A DNA stretch of 20,326 bases from a virus, in the IMG/VR virus record IMGVR_UViG_3300026097_000133, positions 1 to 20,326 of that record; one strand, 5' to 3'. The position numbers and the translations under genes are program-made. Of this stretch, positions 2,113-20,326 are shown in pieces (positions within the stretch are counted from its first letter, which is position 1; every line of letters begins with the position of its first letter). Under the pieces are notes generated by a model. It was not told where the DNA came from and did not search any database. It was given only the letters and a program-made list of their open reading frames with translations.

Positions 2113-2632
2113 TAATAATAAATATCACCAAGGAAATTACATTCCTATAAATAAAGAAAAAGTAATAAAACTAAACTCAGAAGGGGGAATCTACTACCGT
2201 AGTTCCCTCGAAAAAAAAAAAATGATGGTTTGGTTCGATAATAATGATAAAATAATTAGATGGTGTGCAGAGTGTAACAAAATACCATACCAACTCACAC
2301 ATTATGAAAAATCAGGTGATATAAACTTAAAAAGCCATACCTATTATCCCGATTTCTATTACGAATTAGAAAAGAATGACAGAACAACCTCAAAAGTTAT
2401 ATGTGAGGTAAAACCACACAAGGAATATGAAGATGTTATTCTATTCGAAAAGAAATTGTTCAATGTACCCCAAAATGCAACCACAAAAAAATTGAAAAAT
2501 TTAGAATATCGACTTAAAATGGCACAAAAGAATTCACAGAAATGGAAAACAATGATACGTTACTGTGAGAAAAAGGGACTTAAATTCATTGTTATAACAG
2601 AACAACACCTCAAAAGCAAAAAATTCAATTAA
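2093..2632 (+). CDS. 4: Head-completion protein, T4 gp4-like, nuclease fold
   Basis: 179 residues. In T4, gp4 acts after DNA packaging to complete the head so that the tail can join. The protein follows that family's pattern: YHQGNYIPINKEKV near residue 11, YYRSSLEKKKMMVWFD at about 34-49, IIRWCAECNKIPY, then YYPDFYYELE with the conserved Pro-Asp-Phe, and CEVKPHKEYED with the Glu-x-Lys-Pro motif, ending in an aromatic/hydrophobic FIVITEQHL segment. The E...PDF...EVKP arrangement is shared with TnsA/PD-(D/E)XK nucleases. The length fits the family (about 150-180). The start at 2093 sits inside the last codons of the upstream endonuclease (20-nt overlap), so translation may be coupled. The conserved block begins only ten residues in, so no later start is plausible. 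The stop shares the bases TTAA with the convergent fcl gene. Confidence 0.82.
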   Translation: MINSKPNNNKYHQGNYIPINKEKVIKLNSEGGIYYRSSLEKKKMMVWFDNNDKIIRWCAECNKIPYQLTHYEKSGDINLKSHTYYPDFYYELEKNDRTTSKVICEVKPHKEYEDVILFEKKLFNVPQNATTKKLKNLEYRLKMAQKNSQKWKTMIRYCEKKGLKFIVITEQHLKSKKFN

Positions 2633-3579
2633 TTTTTATCACTGAACGTATCCAATGTTTTTAGAAATTCTTTATATGTCATATCTATACCATCTCTTAG
2701 AGAGGTTTTTGGTTCCCACCCAATTTCTTTCAATTTAGAAACATCCAATAATTTTCTAGGAGTACCATCTGGTTTGCTCTGATCAAACTCAACGTTACAA
2801 TAATGACCAATAACATCCTGTATCAGATACACAAGATCTCTTATAGATATATCCTCACCTGTACCAATATTCACAATTTCACTTCCGTTATGATGTTCAA
2901 ATAAATAAACACACGCCTCTGCAAGATCATCAACATAAAGGAATTCCCTTTTTGGGTTTCCGGAACCCCAAACAACCACATTATTATCACTTGAATTCAT
3001 TGATTCGTGTACCTTCCGAATAAGGGCGGGTAATACATGCGATGCTTCAAGATCATAATTATCATTCGGTCCATATAGATTCGTAGGCATCACCGATATG
3101 AAATTTGTACCATGTTGCTCATTATACGATTGACACATCTTTATACCGGCAATCTTAGCAATTGCATAAGAGTCATTAGTGGGTTCTAACTCACCGGTCA
3201 TCAAATACTCCTCTTTTATTGGCTGTTTGGACATCTTAGGATAAATACATGATGAACCAAGGAATAACAATTTCTCCACTCCATACAAATAAGAGTGGTG
3301 TATTACATTATTCTGTATCATCAGATTCTTGTATAGAAAATCTGCTTTTTTAGAATCATTCGCATGGATACCACCTACCTTGGCGGCTGCCATAAAAACA
3401 AACACCGGACGATGTTTTTTAAAATACATATCCACTCTACCTTGGTTTGTCATGTCCAATTCTGAACTTGTTGGGGATAGTATATTATTAAATCCCCTCG
3501 ATTTTAATTGTCGTATTATAGCAGAGCCAACCATACCTCTACCACCACAGACTAATATTTTAGAATACGGTTTTATCAT
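2629..3579 (-). CDS. fcl: GDP-L-fucose synthase
   Basis: 316 residues, the usual length. The enzyme converts GDP-4-keto-6-deoxy-D-mannose to GDP-L-fucose with NADPH, acting as both epimerase and reductase. The N-terminal Rossmann motif [10 protein letters not shown] (about residues 12-21) binds [15 protein letters not shown] holds the catalytic Ser/Cys region and YAIAK the catalytic Tyr-x3-Lys. [29 protein letters not shown] and [11 protein letters not shown] are family signatures of the extended SDR sugar-nucleotide enzymes. All catalytic residues I know of are present, so the gene looks functional. It overlaps gmd by 4 nt (ATGA type), which implies a shared transcript and coupled translation. 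This pair is normally found in bacterial capsule and O-antigen clusters, so the phage probably acquired it. Its 3' end meets gp4 tail to tail. Confidence 0.95.
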
Positions 3580-4622
3580 TGTGTAACTTTCAATTTAATC
3601 AAATCTGCTGATACCATTTCCCTACAAAGTTCTTCAACCGTATATTCGGGTTCCCAATTAAGTACCTCTTTGGCTTTTGTAGAATCACCAAGGAGTTCAT
3701 CTACCTCTGTGGGGCGGAAGTATTTCTCATCAATTTTTATAAGAACTTTATTTGTTTTCGAATCAATACCCACTTCATCAACTCCTTCACCTTTCCACTC
3801 AATATCAACACCAATTTCACGAAATGCCATTTCACAAAAATCCCGAACTGATATCTTCTTACCAGTTGATAATACATAATCTTCTGCTTTTTTTTGCTGC
3901 AGCATCAACCACATACCACGAACATAATCCTTTGCATGTCCCCAATCCCTTTCAGCATCCAAATTCCCAATAGAAAGACTGTCTTGTAGTCCAAGTTTTA
4001 TTTTCGCAACTGCCTGTGTTATCTTCCGAGTAACAAATGTTTCTCCACGAACAGGACTTTCGTGATTGAACAATATACCAGAACAGGCATAAATTCCATA
4101 TGACTCTCTATAATTCACAGTTATCCAATGTGCATATAACTTTGCTACACCATAAGGACTACGTGGATAAAAGGGTGTAGTTTCCTTTTGTGGAACTTCT
4201 TGTACAAGACCAAACATCTCAGATGTTGATGCTTGGTAAAATTTGGTCTTATTTTCCAATTTCAGAATACGGATGGCTTCAAGGATTCTCAAAGTTCCCA
4301 GTGCATCAGAGTTTGCCGTGTATTCAGGTGTTTCAAATGAAACCTTAACGTGTGATTGTGCAGCCAAATTATAAATTTCAGTTGGCTGCACTTCCTGTAC
4401 GATCCGTATTATATTTGTCGAATCCGTAAGATCCCCATAATGCAAAAAGAAACGATCCTTATATTTGGGGTTTTCGTATATGTGGTCTATCCTATCTGTA
4501 TTGAACGAGGAACTTCTTCTTTTTATACCATGGACAATATACCCATTGTCCAAAAGTAATTCCGCCAAATATGACCCATCTTGTCCGGTTATACCGGTAA
4601 TTAATCCAACTTTTTTAGCCAT
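3576..4622 (-). CDS. gmd: GDP-mannose 4,6-dehydratase
   Basis: 348 residues, the usual length. It removes water from GDP-D-mannose to give GDP-4-keto-6-deoxy-D-mannose, the substrate of the next gene. Visible signatures are [15 protein letters not shown] (NADP-binding, starting near residue 9), [45 protein letters not shown] with the catalytic Thr/Glu region, [10 protein letters not shown] with Tyr-x3-Lys, and [18 protein letters not shown], which is highly conserved in Gmd. [12 protein letters not shown] closes the catalytic domain. All key residues are intact. It lies 51 nt downstream of the sigma gene in the same direction and overlaps fcl by 4 nt. The 51-nt gap has no TATATAA box, so the pair may be read with the sigma gene rather than as a late unit. 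Gmd genes are known in several marine phages. Confidence 0.96.
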
Positions 4623-8255: not shown

Positions 8256-8447
8256 TCATTCAAAAATGCTGCTTCCATAATTTAACCGTACACCCATTTC
8301 ATAATATCATCGATATATATATCAAATCTATTGCATAATATTCATCACATACGAATGATATATCAACTAAGATGAGGTATTCCATTTAAATAATGATGAA
8401 AATTCATAAAAAGGTACAAGGTGTTCCATATCAATAATATATATTAT
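8256..8447. other. 192-nt non-coding gap before gp25
   Basis: No credible gene on either strand. The gap is AT-rich and contains a perfect 12-bp palindrome GATATATATATC (8312-8323). I see no terminator with a T-run after the clamp-loader stop. The gp25 promoter is presumably here or overlaps ATATATATT just before the ATG. Confidence 0.5.
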
Positions 8448-8825
8448 ATGCCAGAGTTCGATTTTAAAGATATGTATATAGGATACCAAGGACACCCACG
8501 GTTCCAAGTGAATACCATCATAACCGATGACATAATCCGTGTGATTATTCAAAAATACGAGATGATCATCTTCACAAATAAAGGAGAACTCTATGGTGAT
8601 CCAAATTTTGGGGCAGATCTTTTGAAATTATTATACGAAACAAGAATATCAGCAACAGCAACACGAAATGTGATTGCTCAACAAATCTCGGAATACATAC
8701 CAGAATTGAACGATATCGATTATGGGTTGGAAGTTGTATTTGAACAAGACCCGGAAAAGTTCCAAGATATAATGATTGTGAATTTCACCATACGTGAATA
8801 CGAAGTTAAAGCAATAATTGCCTAA
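8448..8825 (+). CDS. 25: Baseplate wedge protein, T4 gp25-like
   Basis: 125 residues (T4: 132). gp25 sits in the inner baseplate wedge, holds gp6 and gp53, and nucleates sheath assembly. The signature block here is IIFTNKGELYGDPNFGADL at about residues 42-60 (family pattern: T-x-x-G-x-R/L-x-x-D-P-x-F-G). It is followed by a helix with TRISATATRNVIAQQISEYIPEL and a C-terminal beta strand region, IMIVNFTIREYEVKAII. ATG 8448 is chosen over a GTG at 8421: it starts at the usual distance from the conserved block, and the extra nine residues look non-coding. The stop overlaps that of the convergent giant gene by 3 nt. Immediate proximity to the giant protein fits a shared role in the wedge. Confidence 0.88.
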   Translation: MPEFDFKDMYIGYQGHPRFQVNTIITDDIIRVIIQKYEMIIFTNKGELYGDPNFGADLLKLLYETRISATATRNVIAQQISEYIPELNDIDYGLEVVFEQDPEKFQDIMIVNFTIREYEVKAIIA

Positions 8826-11800
8826 CTCAACCTCTTAGTACCAAGTGTCGCATTCCTATATTGCTTCGATGTTAAATTAGCAAATGCCTCTAATTCCTGT
8901 ATATCAAGTATCCCCTTTATCTCATAATTCTTTCTATCTCTCCAATTAAGACCATAACCATTATTAGAACTCACCTCAACAACTATAAATGGGTCAATAT
9001 TTGAATCAACCGTGAAGTTGAATGGGTCAGTGTTAGAAGATAGCCTTCTCTCACTTATTCGTTGAATTGGATGTAAATCTATCTCTTTCCATTCTGTTAT
9101 ATCAATCCAATTCGTAAATTGACCACCATTATCATTCACGGGTGGAATAACTGAGGCTGTTACAGATTGTGTCATTCCATAACCAGAAAATATATAATTA
9201 TACCTATTATAACTCACAACATCAGAAACATTATAAGTAGTACCCGTTTTCCATTCCGGAACATCCTCATACTTCCGAGGGTTATTCAAACGATTATCAC
9301 CAATAACAGACTCATACACCTTATCAAAATAAATAACCTTTTCACCGACAGAATATGTCTTCAATGGATACCATTCACGGTATATCTCATATGTTTTGAT
9401 ATCAACAACATATTCGTCCGGCAATGATTGAGTTACACCAAGTGGTTGATCTGCATAAAAATCAAGAACACAATTATACACAGTTGATCCATTATTAACA
9501 GGCATCAAATAAGATTCATTCAATCTAAAACTGATAGGTGTCATCGATTCCCTCACATTGAATATGGTAACATCTCTCATCTGGTGAGAAATATAAGTGT
9601 TCTGAACAAAATCTGTTCGACCGGTGATATCCAATATCTTATGTGATAATGGTATTATATTCCCCTGCAACCAATATTTCAAACCTTGTAACTTTTTCTG
9701 AACCTCCTCAAGAGTATATGTCAGAACACTATTACCATCTCTATCAGTTATACGGTAAGTAAGGTTGAATAAATTCGTGTCTTCATATGTATCATTTGGA
9801 AATGTACCTTTCAAAAAGTCATTATCTTCCCACCCCACAACAGTTTGGTCAAATATATCAGGTATCTCTACTTTGAACAATTTCATATAGTTTTTTGAAA
9901 GGCGATCAACATTCTTATAATATTCATACAGTTCAAGGTCATTATAACCAAAATAGTTTATGGCATTTATTATTGACTTATATGCCCCAACATATGGGTA
10001 TATAACATGTCGCATCATCAACATCTCTTTACGTTTCTTATTAAGGAATGTCCAATCAATTCCTTCTTCTTTAATATCATACTCCTTAAAAATATAAACA
10101 TCATCTGATGATATCAATTTACCCATATTGTTCAATTCCGTCTTGTATCTTATGTCTTCATTTTCGGTTTGACCATATACGAAAAATCTCCCTATCTCTT
10201 TATCCCACACCCTTATACGCAACGACAAATAAGTAATTGAATTATCTGATGGATAGCCATTGACGATTGTTGATTCATCTTCGAAAAAATCTATTTCTTT
10301 GAAAAATTCAACCTCTATCTCTCTTGAATAAACTGCCTTTACTTTCACCAAATAACCATTATTAACTGATATGTATTGGTTTGAAGCATTTGAAACATCA
10401 TTTAAGAAAATGGCTATATGTTGCCCAACTTCAAGACCCCTATTGACAAACATGGTATTTGATTGTGGATTTAACTTTATAAAACCCGAACGTTTTCCCG
10501 ATACGGGATCAACCACGGTTGAAAATGATATTTCATTTGTAATATCTTGTGATACATCAATGGTAAAGTCAATATCTTCCTTCATATACAATTGTAATAC
10601 TGAACGAAGTGCCCCCTCTTCTCTTGAACGATACCCGACAAAGGTTTCAATTGGTTGTGGTGTTGATGAAATATCATCATTATCATCTACAAACCCCAAT
10701 TCGTGGTCAATTCTCGGAAAAACGGTCTGTTGATAGATGGAATTTCCCACTTTGTCAATATCCCTATTAGGCTTATTGTTCAAATGAACCGTTGGCAAAG
10801 GCTTTTGACCAATATAGGCGAGTGGTCCATCAGTAGTCAGTTGTTCCCCCGAAAAATCATAAAGGAAAAATTCCGGAACATTATCCGAATACCATTTCCA
10901 ATAAACACTTGCTGTTATACCGCCATTGAAATTGTATCGTGGTCTTCTCAAATAATCCCTCGTATTCAACCAGAGACCATCTGGTTGTGTATAATTAGGA
11001 TGAAGAGCACCATATTGACTTTGTGTAACAGTCAATGGATTCGACACAACCACATTGGAAACCACAAAAGAAACTTGTGGAACAACTTCAATTATCTGTG
11101 ATAATGTAGGTTGCAAAAACCAAACAGAATTCCTATCCGGGTTGAAAACATTTCGTGTAGTATTATCACCAACAGGTAATGTGAATAATTCCCTCACAAC
11201 ACCTGTAACAGAATTCATAACAGATATATTTGCATTACCCGGATCCTGATTGGAAATATAAACATCCCCATCATAATAATTCAATACTTGGTATCCATAT
11301 GCAGGCGGTACTGTATTATTATAAAATTGATTGCCATTGCTTGCATTTCTTTTATAAAACTTAGGTGCATCCGATGATGCATATATAGAATCATCCACCC
11401 CTGAAAATTCAAGATAATTATTCGTTCCTGATGCAATACCAGTTGATATAACAACATTATTATCAATATAATATAAATCCGAAGAGTCATAGAAATAAAC
11501 TGCCTCTCTTACCGGGTCATAGATAACCTCATCATCTGTTACCGATGGAACAGAATACGTATTCACAACGGTTCGTGTCGAACCATCTATCCTTCTAACA
11601 TCAGTTGGTGGGGAAACAACATACATATCCCCTTCAAATTCATTGAAAACAATATCATATCCCTGACCCGATATGGTCTGCACCAATGAACCGGAATTGT
11701 ATATTAGAACTGATGTATCTGTCGTAACATAAACATCCCCATTATCACGATTGAAATCAAGTGAGAATGCAGTTGATGGTAATGTTACCGAACCAATAAG

Positions 11801-14611
11801 ATTCTGTGTGTAAATATCAATCCAATAAAGATCCCTTTCTTCTAAGGCATATACATAAGAATCATATGTATTATAAATCATCTTCAATGGTGAGTAAGTA
11901 CCTGATAAAGTAACTTGTGATTCTAAATTACTCGTTATTGAATCATATACCAATACATCATTACCAAGTACAAAAATTGAACTCGATGGTTGCACATAAA
12001 GAATATCCACAATAGATTGTGTTGCTGTTGCATATGTGTTCAATGAATATGTTGCCGTGTTTTGGAATGTGATATTATATGCACTCGAAAATTGCTGATT
12101 GTTGAATTGACCACCTGACTGGGTCACGGAAATACACCCTGATTGCTGAAACCCATTAGAGAACCCAACAATTGCAAATGGAGAATTACCATAACACGCC
12201 TGAGTCAATCCCCAAAATGGACCCTCATAACTTAAATTCATTATATATGGATCAAGGAATATTATACTATAATCAACATTCTGCAATGTATAAACAGTAT
12301 TATTTACCCCCATGACCATACCCGTAGAAAATCCAGAATCCTCAAAATGAAGACATGAAAATGTTCCGGACTGTGTTCCGGATTGTGTCCCAAGTATTAC
12401 CGAATTTGATGTGAGAAGTGAACCATGGTTCCCTTTGAATTTCTCAGTTATCACATAATTACTATCACCTGGCAAAACACTTGCACCCGGCTTCACACTT
12501 ATATCACACCTTTGGGATGGGTCTTTAACATTAAATTTCAATGTTGAGCCAAGATTATCAACATATACACCAAAATCATCCAAAATAAATTGGTGTTGGT
12601 CTATCCAATCCTCCAATGTTTCTACCATCGAAGATACCCCACCCGTTGGAAGGCTGTGTGTTACTGGATATGATCGATCATTCACAACAATATCCACATA
12701 TGGTCCATAACTGAAAGTAACACCCTCAATAGATGGTTCGTGAAAAGTTACCTCTGTGTGTTCTATATAAAAATCTGCAGTTGAACCAACACTTACATTG
12801 AAATCCATTGGAACATTCGGATATTGAGTTTCTAATTTTATAGAATTCTTATAGGGTGAAATCATACCTATTGTCTGTAATGTTGGTGCAATACCCAAAC
12901 TCACCAACTCAGATAGGTTGTTATTATACCACTCAATAAGTGTGGCGTGTATTGTTCGTTCCATATCAATCTGACCAGATGAATACACAAATTTTATATC
13001 TGCTTGATAAATTTCACCATTTATATTTATGACAAACCCAAATTCGTCAAGGTCAGTGAAGACAATATTATAAAGGAAATTCTCAGATATATCATAATTA
13101 TACTCACTTGTAAGTTGTTCTTCAACTTCAATAAGTCTTTCTATTTTCTGATTCGTTGTACCAATATTCACCTGTGGGGTGGTATCTGTTAAAAAATTAA
13201 CAATAGTGTATTGCGATGGATGCACAAGGTCGGCCTTTAACTCAGAACCTTCATAATAAAGGTCTATATCAAGCTCAGAAAAGACATCTGAGTACTTATC
13301 AGCAGCAGATGCAAGTGTTACCCCCTCAGAGAAGGTGAAACTCTGTGTGAATGCGAATCTATCAACAGTAAGATAAACTTTACCATTTACCCCAATTGTC
13401 TCATTCACGGGTGTCTGTTCAACGGGTATATAAGTTGCCGTACTTGACCAATAATCCGTATCATCCGGATTTACAGTAGTTACCGGTGGAGTAACAGTAA
13501 GGTCTTCACTTATGGAGTTAGCAACCCACGTATATGATTGAACACATTGATATATTTTATTCTTCCATATTACTTGCTGACCAACTTGGTATGTTGTTTG
13601 GTTAGCATTCCCAACAAATGAAGAAATTGGGGAAACTCTATAAAATTGTTGGTTAGATATCGACTCCGGTATCTTAAATTCAACACCCGGCTTCAATATT
13701 TGAGGAACACCCGAAACAAAATCAATAACACCAACAAAACCAAGTGAGTTGGTTGTTGTTGCATCATAAAATTGCATTGCTCCCTCATAAACCAAAGGAA
13801 CATCTGTTCTTGTAAGAACTTCTATGAAAAGTCCCGTGTTGGTTGGTAACTGTGTATTTGATACCGAATACTCATAATGACTCATATCAAGTAGGTTATC
13901 ATTCTTTATAGTAACAATATCAACATCATCAAAATCATTAGTTTGTTTATAATCATCATTACTATCAGTATTAACAATATTTATCCTCCTACCAACATCG
14001 ATCTTAGTGTAGAATTCATCCTCATTCCAAGTGGATAAAGTATTCTGTAATGATGGAGTTATGTAATTATAAATACCAAGGGCATCAACAGATGATATCT
14101 TCTCGTCATTGTATGACGAATTATTCTGATAAGGATACGTATTATCGAAGAACGAATTTGTTTCATCAGATAATATCATAATTGCACCCGGCTTTGTTCT
14201 TATAACGAAATACATTCTATTGGGGTCTGTGAATCCAAATATAGGATCATCGAACCGTATCAATGTACCAATAGGAAATTTCTTATGAAAATCAACACCA
14301 TAAACCCACTTGGAATAATATGAATCCTCAAAATTAACAGGTTCAATAGATGTCACAACCTCAGACAAAACACCGGATTCATAGAAATGAAAGCCATATT
14401 CATTAAATAACTGCCATTTATCAAGTGTAAGATTCTCTCCACACTCATAATCAAAAGCATCTACATTTTCAAACATATAAATGCCCTGTGTTTTAAATGT
14501 GTCTGTTGAATTCTCATGAAAGAGGATATCCCCATCATATCTTTCAATATCTGTATTATACGTAATGTTTAAAGACTTTCCCTCCTTATCAAAGAACCTA
14601 AGATTATTCAT
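8822..14611 (-). CDS. Giant tail/baseplate structural protein (1929 aa) with inserted beta-propeller and carbohydrate-binding-like modules
   Basis: The longest gene here. I do not recognise it end to end. The N-terminal 330 residues are mixed beta. Around residues 334-390 there is a CBM5/12-like pattern: YQVGQQVIWKNKIYQC, a Trp/Tyr-rich stretch and DYWSS. From about 864 to 1177, about eight 38-42-residue units carry Asp/Gly-x-hydrophobic-Tyr patterns (YDSYVYALEE, NGDVYVTTDT, EGDMYVVSPP, REAVYFYDSS, DGDVYISNQ), which is typical of a YVTN/NHL beta-propeller. Residues about 1514-1565 (FLNKKRKEMLMMRHVIYPYV then INAINYFGYNDLELYEYY) are helical and resemble gpI/gp7-type wedge proteins. Two more CBM-like units lie at 1741-1842 (EWYPLKTYSVGEKVIYF and EWKTGTTYNVSDVVSY). 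Short Thr-Gln-Ser motifs recur (for example GTQSGTQSG). Its position beside gp25 suggests a wedge or fibre-bearing baseplate part; gp7-like is my best guess. It could bind host surface sugars. Confidence 0.75.
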   Translation of the reverse strand: MNNLRFFDKEGKSLNITYNTDIERYDGDILFHENSTDTFKTQGIYMFENVDAFDYECGENLTLDKWQLFNEYGFHFYESGVLSEVVTSIEPVNFEDSYYSKWVYGVDFHKKFPIGTLIRFDDPIFGFTDPNRMYFVIRTKPGAIMILSDETNSFFDNTYPYQNNSSYNDEKISSVDALGIYNYITPSLQNTLSTWNEDEFYTKIDVGRRINIVNTDSNDDYKQTNDFDDVDIVTIKNDNLLDMSHYEYSVSNTQLPTNTGLFIEVLTRTDVPLVYEGAMQFYDATTTNSLGFVGVIDFVSGVPQILKPGVEFKIPESISNQQFYRVSPISSFVGNANQTTYQVGQQVIWKNKIYQCVQSYTWVANSISEDLTVTPPVTTVNPDDTDYWSSTATYIPVEQTPVNETIGVNGKVYLTVDRFAFTQSFTFSEGVTLASAADKYSDVFSELDIDLYYEGSELKADLVHPSQYTIVNFLTDTTPQVNIGTTNQKIERLIEVEEQLTSEYNYDISENFLYNIVFTDLDEFGFVININGEIYQADIKFVYSSGQIDMERTIHATLIEWYNNNLSELVSLGIAPTLQTIGMISPYKNSIKLETQYPNVPMDFNVSVGSTADFYIEHTEVTFHEPSIEGVTFSYGPYVDIVVNDRSYPVTHSLPTGGVSSMVETLEDWIDQHQFILDDFGVYVDNLGSTLKFNVKDPSQRCDISVKPGASVLPGDSNYVITEKFKGNHGSLLTSNSVILGTQSGTQSGTFSCLHFEDSGFSTGMVMGVNNTVYTLQNVDYSIIFLDPYIMNLSYEGPFWGLTQACYGNSPFAIVGFSNGFQQSGCISVTQSGGQFNNQQFSSAYNITFQNTATYSLNTYATATQSIVDILYVQPSSSIFVLGNDVLVYDSITSNLESQVTLSGTYSPLKMIYNTYDSYVYALEERDLYWIDIYTQNLIGSVTLPSTAFSLDFNRDNGDVYVTTDTSVLIYNSGSLVQTISGQGYDIVFNEFEGDMYVVSPPTDVRRIDGSTRTVVNTYSVPSVTDDEVIYDPVREAVYFYDSSDLYYIDNNVVISTGIASGTNNYLEFSGVDDSIYASSDAPKFYKRNASNGNQFYNNTVPPAYGYQVLNYYDGDVYISNQDPGNANISVMNSVTGVVRELFTLPVGDNTTRNVFNPDRNSVWFLQPTLSQIIEVVPQVSFVVSNVVVSNPLTVTQSQYGALHPNYTQPDGLWLNTRDYLRRPRYNFNGGITASVYWKWYSDNVPEFFLYDFSGEQLTTDGPLAYIGQKPLPTVHLNNKPNRDIDKVGNSIYQQTVFPRIDHELGFVDDNDDISSTPQPIETFVGYRSREEGALRSVLQLYMKEDIDFTIDVSQDITNEISFSTVVDPVSGKRSGFIKLNPQSNTMFVNRGLEVGQHIAIFLNDVSNASNQYISVNNGYLVKVKAVYSREIEVEFFKEIDFFEDESTIVNGYPSDNSITYLSLRIRVWDKEIGRFFVYGQTENEDIRYKTELNNMGKLISSDDVYIFKEYDIKEEGIDWTFLNKKRKEMLMMRHVIYPYVGAYKSIINAINYFGYNDLELYEYYKNVDRLSKNYMKLFKVEIPDIFDQTVVGWEDNDFLKGTFPNDTYEDTNLFNLTYRITDRDGNSVLTYTLEEVQKKLQGLKYWLQGNIIPLSHKILDITGRTDFVQNTYISHQMRDVTIFNVRESMTPISFRLNESYLMPVNNGSTVYNCVLDFYADQPLGVTQSLPDEYVVDIKTYEIYREWYPLKTYSVGEKVIYFDKVYESVIGDNRLNNPRKYEDVPEWKTGTTYNVSDVVSYNRYNYIFSGYGMTQSVTASVIPPVNDNGGQFTNWIDITEWKEIDLHPIQRISERRLSSNTDPFNFTVDSNIDPFIVVEVSSNNGYGLNWRDRKNYEIKGILDIQELEAFANLTSKQYRNATLGTKRLS

Positions 14612-19131: not shown

Positions 19132-20326
19132 ATGATATTATCTGAAACCATTCAAGTAAAAACCAAGGGGAATAAGAAACTCAAACACTACAATTCACTT
19201 GGATACAATACAAGTAAAGAGTTTATAGAAGTTTATATAAAGGACTTGCCTCTATCAATATCCAATGAGGTATTAGTAAAATGTGATTATTGTGGCACTG
19301 AACACTATAAAAAGTATGTCGATTATAATAGAGTGGCAAGTGATACTAAATACGCATGTTCCCGTAAATGTGGAACGATCAAAGCAAAAGAAACAATTGA
19401 GAATTCCCCAAAAAAAGACCATCCCCTAAAAGGTAAAAAAATAGATCCGGATAAATTAAATGAGATAATCCAAAAAAGGATAAACACCAACATTGAAAAA
19501 TATGGTGTTGAACATGTTCTACAAAAAGAAGAAATAAAAGAAAAATTCAAAAAAACCAACATAAAGAAATATGGGACTGACAACTATGCAAAAACAGACG
19601 AATTCATAGAAAGGCAACGAAAAAATACAATCGACAAATATGGTGTTACACATATATCAAAATTAGAAGAAACAAAAGAGAAAATAAGAAGAACAAATAT
19701 AAAGAAATATGGTGTTCCTTCCACATTGAATATTGAACGGGCAAATGAAAACAGACTTGAAGTTTTCAAATCTGAAGAACACAGAAAGGATTATGAAATA
19801 TCTAATCACAAAGATTATATAAAATACATAGGAAACAGCACATCACTGTTCATGTGTGAAAAAGGACACGAATTTCGAATAAAATATGATAATTATAAAA
19901 GTAGATTATCGAATAATATACCTTTATGTACCACATGTTACCCCATAAACAGTTTAACATCCATAAAAGAAGAAGAACTATACAACCACATATCATCACT
20001 ATACAACAAAGAAGTCATAAAATCCCACCGGGATATAACGGAATTGGATATATACATCCCAAGCCTCAATATTGGGTTTGAATTCAATGGGTTATATTGG
20101 CATTCAAATAAATTCAAAGACAAGAATTACCATCTGAATAAGACAAATTACTTTAAGAAAAAGAACATAAGAGTTATACACATATGGGAAGATGAATGGG
20201 ATAATAAGAAAGAAATAATATTATCACAAACAAAAAACCTACTCAACAAAAGCAATCGAATAGGTGCAAGAAAATGCAAAGTTATTGAAATAAATGACAC
20301 ATCCATAAGTAAAGGATTCTTAAATG
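19132..20326 (+). CDS. Homing-type endonuclease with KYG repeats and a Vsr/EDxHD-like nuclease domain, 3' end cut off
   Basis: At least 398 residues from ATG 19132; it runs off the right edge without a stop. Order: a zinc-binding pair at residues about 51-85 (CDYCG, then CSRKCG); four 22-24-residue repeats at about 119-200, each with Ile-x-Lys-Tyr-Gly (IEKYGVEHVLQ, IKKYGTDNYAK, IDKYGVTHISK, IKKYGVPSTLN), which probably contact DNA; a second zinc pair at about 241-270 (CEKGHEF, then CTTCYP); and from about 306 a nuclease core LDIYIPSLNIGFEFNGLYWHS with Asp, Glu and His, followed by YHLNKTNYFKKKNIRVIHIW and EDEW. This is the pattern of phage homing endonucleases of the Vsr-like EDxHD group. The gene is free-standing between gp26-like/small protein and the next, unseen gene. 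Very AT-rich. The domain call is firm; active-site assignment is by pattern. Confidence 0.8.
   Translation, partial: MILSETIQVKTKGNKKLKHYNSLGYNTSKEFIEVYIKDLPLSISNEVLVKCDYCGTEHYKKYVDYNRVASDTKYACSRKCGTIKAKETIENSPKKDHPLKGKKIDPDKLNEIIQKRINTNIEKYGVEHVLQKEEIKEKFKKTNIKKYGTDNYAKTDEFIERQRKNTIDKYGVTHISKLEETKEKIRRTNIKKYGVPSTLNIERANENRLEVFKSEEHRKDYEISNHKDYIKYIGNSTSLFMCEKGHEFRIKYDNYKSRLSNNIPLCTTCYPINSLTSIKEEELYNHISSLYNKEVIKSHRDITELDIYIPSLNIGFEFNGLYWHSNKFKDKNYHLNKTNYFKKKNIRVIHIWEDEWDNKKEIILSQTKNLLNKSNRIGARKCKVIEINDTSISKGFLN

Follow-up and report, generated by a model that had tools for sequence, protein, structure and literature searches.

Beta-propellers associated with phage baseplates are known from PhiKZ gp131 and phi11 gp45 (PMC4901313). 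The former (4GBF) is found at the baseplate periphery of a very large contractile-tailed phage, where a receptor-binding role has been speculated for it, and the latter is a separate trimeric receptor-binding protein of a siphophage whose baseplate-borne propeller is implicated in host recognition (PMC4901313). Here we describe a 1929-amino acid (aa) multidomain protein encoded in IMG/VR virus record IMGVR_UViG_3300026097_000133 (positions 1 to 20,326; this 20-kb fragment is called the window below), in which a predicted eight-bladed propeller occupies a fixed slot of a much larger polypeptide from a tail gene locus. Compared by description, the propeller of gp131 has seven blades and is a C-terminal domain and that of phi11 gp45 has five blades, whereas the propeller of the window protein has eight and is inserted within a large multidomain polypeptide. 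By profile and fold it falls in the same class as the YncE/YVTN propellers (3vgz; the S-layer protein 1l0q; B12-binding surface lipoproteins of Bacteroides), with the difference that NCBIfam calls YncE seven-bladed and that the phage domain lies inside a tail-locus protein. Our literature search found no description of an eight-bladed propeller inserted in this way into a giant protein of the tail locus, and no report of T4 wedge proteins with a propeller. Baseplate propellers as such have precedents; what is new is the eight-bladed propeller in a fixed slot that is empty or otherwise filled in relatives.

The propeller was modelled with AlphaFold2 (residues 728-1300, alignment of 62 homologues; residue n begins at window base 14611-3(n-1)). 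Residues 848-1188 form a closed ring of seven four-stranded blades plus an eighth that is closed by the N-terminal strand, with a predicted local distance difference test (pLDDT) score mostly >90; both linkers are of low confidence in the model. When the blade segments, with borders taken from the model, were compared with each other, they were alike beyond shuffled sequences (summed score 764 vs 611 +/- 25, z ~6, 0/500 shuffles). Searched against the PDB as a single sequence, the protein gave no match, and matches came with profiles: the family profile detected the archaeal YVTN propeller 1l0q (E 6.9e-16), followed by Lp49 and YncE (3vgz, E 5.1e-5). In Foldseek the best 50 matches are propellers throughout, the top target-normalised template modelling (TM) score belonging to the eight-bladed design Tako8 (0.76), with YncE near the top by E-value. 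The YncE-type NCBIfam model NF052280 was matched in 21 of the 62 homologues (best E 8.7e-7), and the window's own propeller, queried alone, had no match to it. On profile and model evidence the domain is thus a predicted closed-ring propeller of the YncE/YVTN class, with a modelled blade count of eight vs the seven of YncE. An earlier note on this DNA, made from the letters alone, had read an eight-unit propeller at about residues 864-1177 (bases 12022-11081); both its count and its borders were right, and in place of an unclosed structure or a fibre-like beta-helix, which the note took as the outcomes that would speak against it, modelling and fold search gave a closed propeller.

The slot was measured as the stretch between two flanks that are kept whether or not a homologue has the propeller, in 104 distinct homologues, a sample biased toward sequences resembling the query alignments. 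It is 405-445 aa long and holds the propeller in 77 of them. In 13 others, the 735-kb phage among them, it is near-empty at 6-26 aa, and in one it measures 42 aa. Three homologues carry 160-172 aa at this position, two of them (L092, L094) a PKD-like domain and the third (L006) an unassigned insert of 172 aa. Enlarged or divergent slots of 477, 528 and 1100 aa were found in three more, the longest of which (L148:12275-15574) contains a Ycf48/BNR-type propeller (PF14870, E 2.5e-33) nested in a YncE-type propeller; six distant homologues (LR756500, Lak, Tenacibaculum and Chryseobacterium phages) have no detectable slot flanks. The last homologue, L134, has a slot of 81 aa in which, by alignment, the first linker and the flanks are retained in frame and the blades are gone. 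It is conceivable that this gap is an assembly artefact, L134 being one contig, but its position in frame and at the domain edges argues otherwise. The comparison that the earlier note had proposed, whether the propeller comes and goes as a cassette, therefore has a clear outcome.

The tree of flanks and core puts the propeller bearers in a single group, in which L134 sits within the subgroup of the window protein; the propeller history takes a minimum of two changes on this tree, a single gain and a single loss. The approximately unbiased test rejected a topology in which the propeller bearers are grouped and L134 is left out (p-AU 0.0002, for a group named after the tree was seen), and some long branches make the deep placements unsure. 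Propeller distances are ~1.5x the core distances and correlated with them (Spearman 0.76), which points to mostly vertical descent after one gain; free exchange of the propeller between lineages was rejected on the same correlation. The propeller would have been gained once in the sampled lineage, would have evolved faster than the core, and could be lost with frame and flanks left intact.

The smaller modules resemble carbohydrate-binding domains. CBM_5_12 is the only Pfam family above cut-off in the 1929-aa protein, where PHROG gave no match and DUF4888 was sub-threshold; it scores 34.2 bits over the whole protein (gathering score 26.2) in three stretches, and the C-terminal pair alone scores 25.7 bits, just below the cut-off. 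By profile, the module near residue 340 has its match in the chitin-binding domain of chitinase A1 (1ed7); for the pair at 1741-1845 the match, by profile (E 5.6e-4) and by fold, is to the tandem modules of Vibrio chitin deacetylase (4nz1). This agrees with the one CBM5/12-like unit near 340 and the two near 1741-1842 that the earlier note had located. In the model of residues 1301-1929 (predicted TM score 0.36) the beta-sandwich and the CBM-like modules are good, and for the helical core none of the best fold hits was a convincing match to a baseplate protein. In several relatives the site of the C-terminal pair is taken up by 8-14 aa. The ligand-binding Trp of the chitinase A1 domain we take to be W687, directly before a Pro. 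Across 32 aligned homologues, none of the three modules has an aromatic residue at this place ahead of the conserved Pro, and the phage modules, unlike those of chitinase A1 and chitin deacetylase, have no enzyme attached. The modules can be named as a fold, then, and not as proven sugar binders, because of the non-aromatic position. That the propeller and the CBM-like modules are true lectins binding host glycans is improbable in our judgement: the CBM5/12 resemblance of three modules and the precedent of the phi11 gp45 five-bladed propeller, with a cavity that could hold N-acetylglucosamine (PMC4901313), are set against the changed Trp position and against the profile relatives of the propeller, which are YncE/YVTN proteins and not lectins. 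The proposal of the earlier note, a baseplate that itself recognises host glycans, finds no support here beyond resemblance; propellers bind many things.

A place in the baseplate is suggested by the gp25-like neighbour and the tail tube gene in the window, and by gene order in the relatives. In the window the gp25-like gene is adjacent but convergent. The gp6 gene (phrog_219, E 9e-22 to 4e-24) is one to three genes away from the shorter homologue in PTm1, MA9V-1 and pT24, and a gp25-like open reading frame (ORF) is near the homologue in LR756500, Lak-B5 and PTm1; in T4 these gp6/gp25 surroundings are the neighbourhood of gp7, likewise a large multidomain protein. From this synteny we infer a wedge-type role and a gp7-like position for the window protein. 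The shorter Tenacibaculum phage homologue PTm1 gp177 (L010) belongs to phrog_28177, a family without assigned function, and its synteny suggests a baseplate role as well. Membership in the T4 gp7 family itself had no support by profile: with seven gp7 sequences, hhalign found no profile relation for alignments or trimmed cores (probability <1%), and none of the three Gp7 Pfam domains is present in the window protein (the middle region of T4 gp7 matches no Pfam family). The protein is not filed as gp7 on account of this profile comparison. It is very unlikely that the protein is no part of the virion and is an intracellular or secreted multidomain protein placed beside tail genes by chance, as the nearby clamp loader, gp47 and sugar-nucleotide genes might suggest, since several phages that belong to different lineages have a homologue near gp6 or gp25.

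Our judgement leans slightly towards a large wedge-type baseplate protein of Mahaphage-like huge phages that carries outward host-contact cassettes. The flanks and the C-terminal core form the conserved structural part (by homology), to which synteny assigns the wedge role; one fixed slot after residue 800 holds the predicted eight-bladed YncE/YVTN-type propeller on two linkers, and two CBM5/12-like modules make up another insert, in the C-terminal beta-sandwich. Most likely, propeller and smaller modules are displayed at the baseplate's outer or lower rim and touch the host surface, be it protein, capsule or lipopolysaccharide. Contractile tails generally have six copies of a wedge protein per baseplate, and the same number would be expected here if the protein is one. 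An outward-facing contact domain is favoured because the slot content is exchangeable, the propeller diverges faster, and in the contractile phage baseplates studied the third wedge protein is where receptor-binding proteins are attached (PMC10811340).

The main rival to a contact domain is a propeller that serves as a structural spacer or protein-docking platform, joining wedges or holding tail fibres without direct host contact, which we consider unlikely. Propellers are common protein-docking scaffolds (WDR5 and ODA16 are among the fold matches), the slot may be empty or carry PKD-like domains, which are often spacers, and the A-B loops are less variable than the other loops (mean entropy 1.47 vs 2.2-2.35 bits). 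The conserved A-B turns are probably structural blade turns, however, and the conserved face is therefore not necessarily a docking face; the clean loss in L134 and the absence in the 735-kb phage indicate that assembly does not need the propeller. For the outward-facing baseplate protein that we prefer, several points count on the other side. No PHROG or Pfam family puts the window protein itself in the baseplate, the profile comparison with T4 gp7 was negative, and gp6 was not seen beside the gene in the window. Our search found no virion proteomics or structure of the protein or its homologues, the CBM5/12-like modules have the non-aromatic position described above, quicker divergence is expected of any loosely constrained domain too, and the exposure and host contact of the propeller are what we infer. 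More tentatively, and at rather less than an even chance, the slot after LSYQGPFW might be a general display port of the baseplate protein of the largest known phages, holding a propeller, a PKD-like domain, an unassigned domain, a nested Ycf48-type propeller or nothing, so that host contact would be altered by swapping baseplate parts, beyond the tail fibres.

By tblastn against phage records, full-length homologues were found in LR745206 (634,780 bp) and LR756502 (642,428 bp) at 45-46% over 99%, partial ones in LR756504 (636,363 bp) and LR756501/LR756503 (735,411 bp), and the core only (residues ~1473-1687) in LR756500, in Lak phages of Prevotella and in Tenacibaculum and Chryseobacterium phages; IMG/VR scans gave >220 related contigs. 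The closest named full-length relatives are genomes of the Mahaphage clade, which includes the largest genomes and the Lak phages and has predicted hosts in the Bacteroidetes (PMC7162821). So few of the largest phages are in culture that next to nothing is known of the way in which they reach their hosts. The family provides a marker protein and a natural comparison of near relatives with and without the propeller, and if the slot is indeed a host-contact port, its content could help to predict the hosts of uncultured huge phages. The features of the gene are collected in the table.

Table. Features of the 1929-aa protein gene and its gp25-like neighbour, in window coordinates
Feature	Position	Strand	Basis
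1929-aa multidomain baseplate-locus protein	8822..14611	minus (14611 -> 8822)	complete single-frame ORF; full-length homologues
Conserved N-terminal segment, residues 1-60, motif FFDKEG...N...NSTDTF	14432..14611	minus	invariant alignment columns; hidden Markov model match in nearly all huge-phage homologues
First CBM5/12-like module, residues ~335-395	13427..13609	minus	Pfam CBM_5_12 best stretch 337-361; 1ed7 E 2.8e-4
Upstream flank of slot, residues 728-800, ending LSYEGPFW	12212..12430	minus	conserved in homologues with and without propeller
Linker into propeller, residues 801-847, low model confidence, largely retained in propeller-less L134	12071..12211	minus	low pLDDT; alignment
Predicted eight-bladed beta-propeller cassette, residues 848-1188	11048..12070	minus	AlphaFold2, Foldseek, profile search, NCBIfam YncE-type matches
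Linker out of propeller, residues 1189-1212	10976..11047	minus	AlphaFold2 model
Downstream flank of slot, residues 1213-1300, ...LNTRDYLRRPR	10712..10975	minus	conserved in homologues with and without propeller
Core common to Lak, Tenacibaculum and Chryseobacterium phages, residues 1470-1690, KRKEML...YKSIINAINYFGYNDL	9542..10204	minus	tblastn
Second cassette, two CBM5/12-like modules within C-terminal beta-sandwich, residues 1741-1845	9077..9391	minus	profile, fold, alignments
gp25-like baseplate wedge gene (weak assignment)	8421..8825	plus	phrog_261 E 2.9e-5; PF04965 E 0.005, below cut-off

The earlier note had also described a single 1929-residue tail protein beside gp25, and the ORF is real. 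Its neighbour, which by profile is weakly gp25-like, converges with it and overlaps it by 4 bases. Other window genes were assigned by profile to a tail tube, a clamp loader, an SbcD-like gp47 and a late sigma factor, and because of these genes the window is regarded as the T4-like core region of a large phage. At the C-terminal end of the protein, extensions of 287-882 aa were seen in three homologues (L073:15719-18364, L077:4709-5569, L059:15464-16534), consisting of a fibronectin type III array in L073 and of Thr-rich low-complexity tails in L077 and L059.

Elsewhere in the window, genes for a GDP-mannose 4,6-dehydratase (PF16363 E 5.2e-160) and a GDP-fucose-synthase-like protein (PF01370 E 8.4e-64) stand side by side on the minus strand (2629-4622) and may give the phage a GDP-fucose pathway; homologues of these sugar-nucleotide genes are near the large protein in L003 too. 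Two large plus-strand ORFs (520-2112 and 19132-20325) resemble free-standing homing endonucleases; their domains are of zinc-finger or repeat type (DUF723/DUF4379/DUF2726; DUF7487), and similar ORFs turn up near the locus in other contigs. A TnsA-like endonuclease N-terminal domain (PF08722 E 6.3e-13) is encoded on the plus strand at 2093-2632, overlapping the end of the first of these two ORFs.

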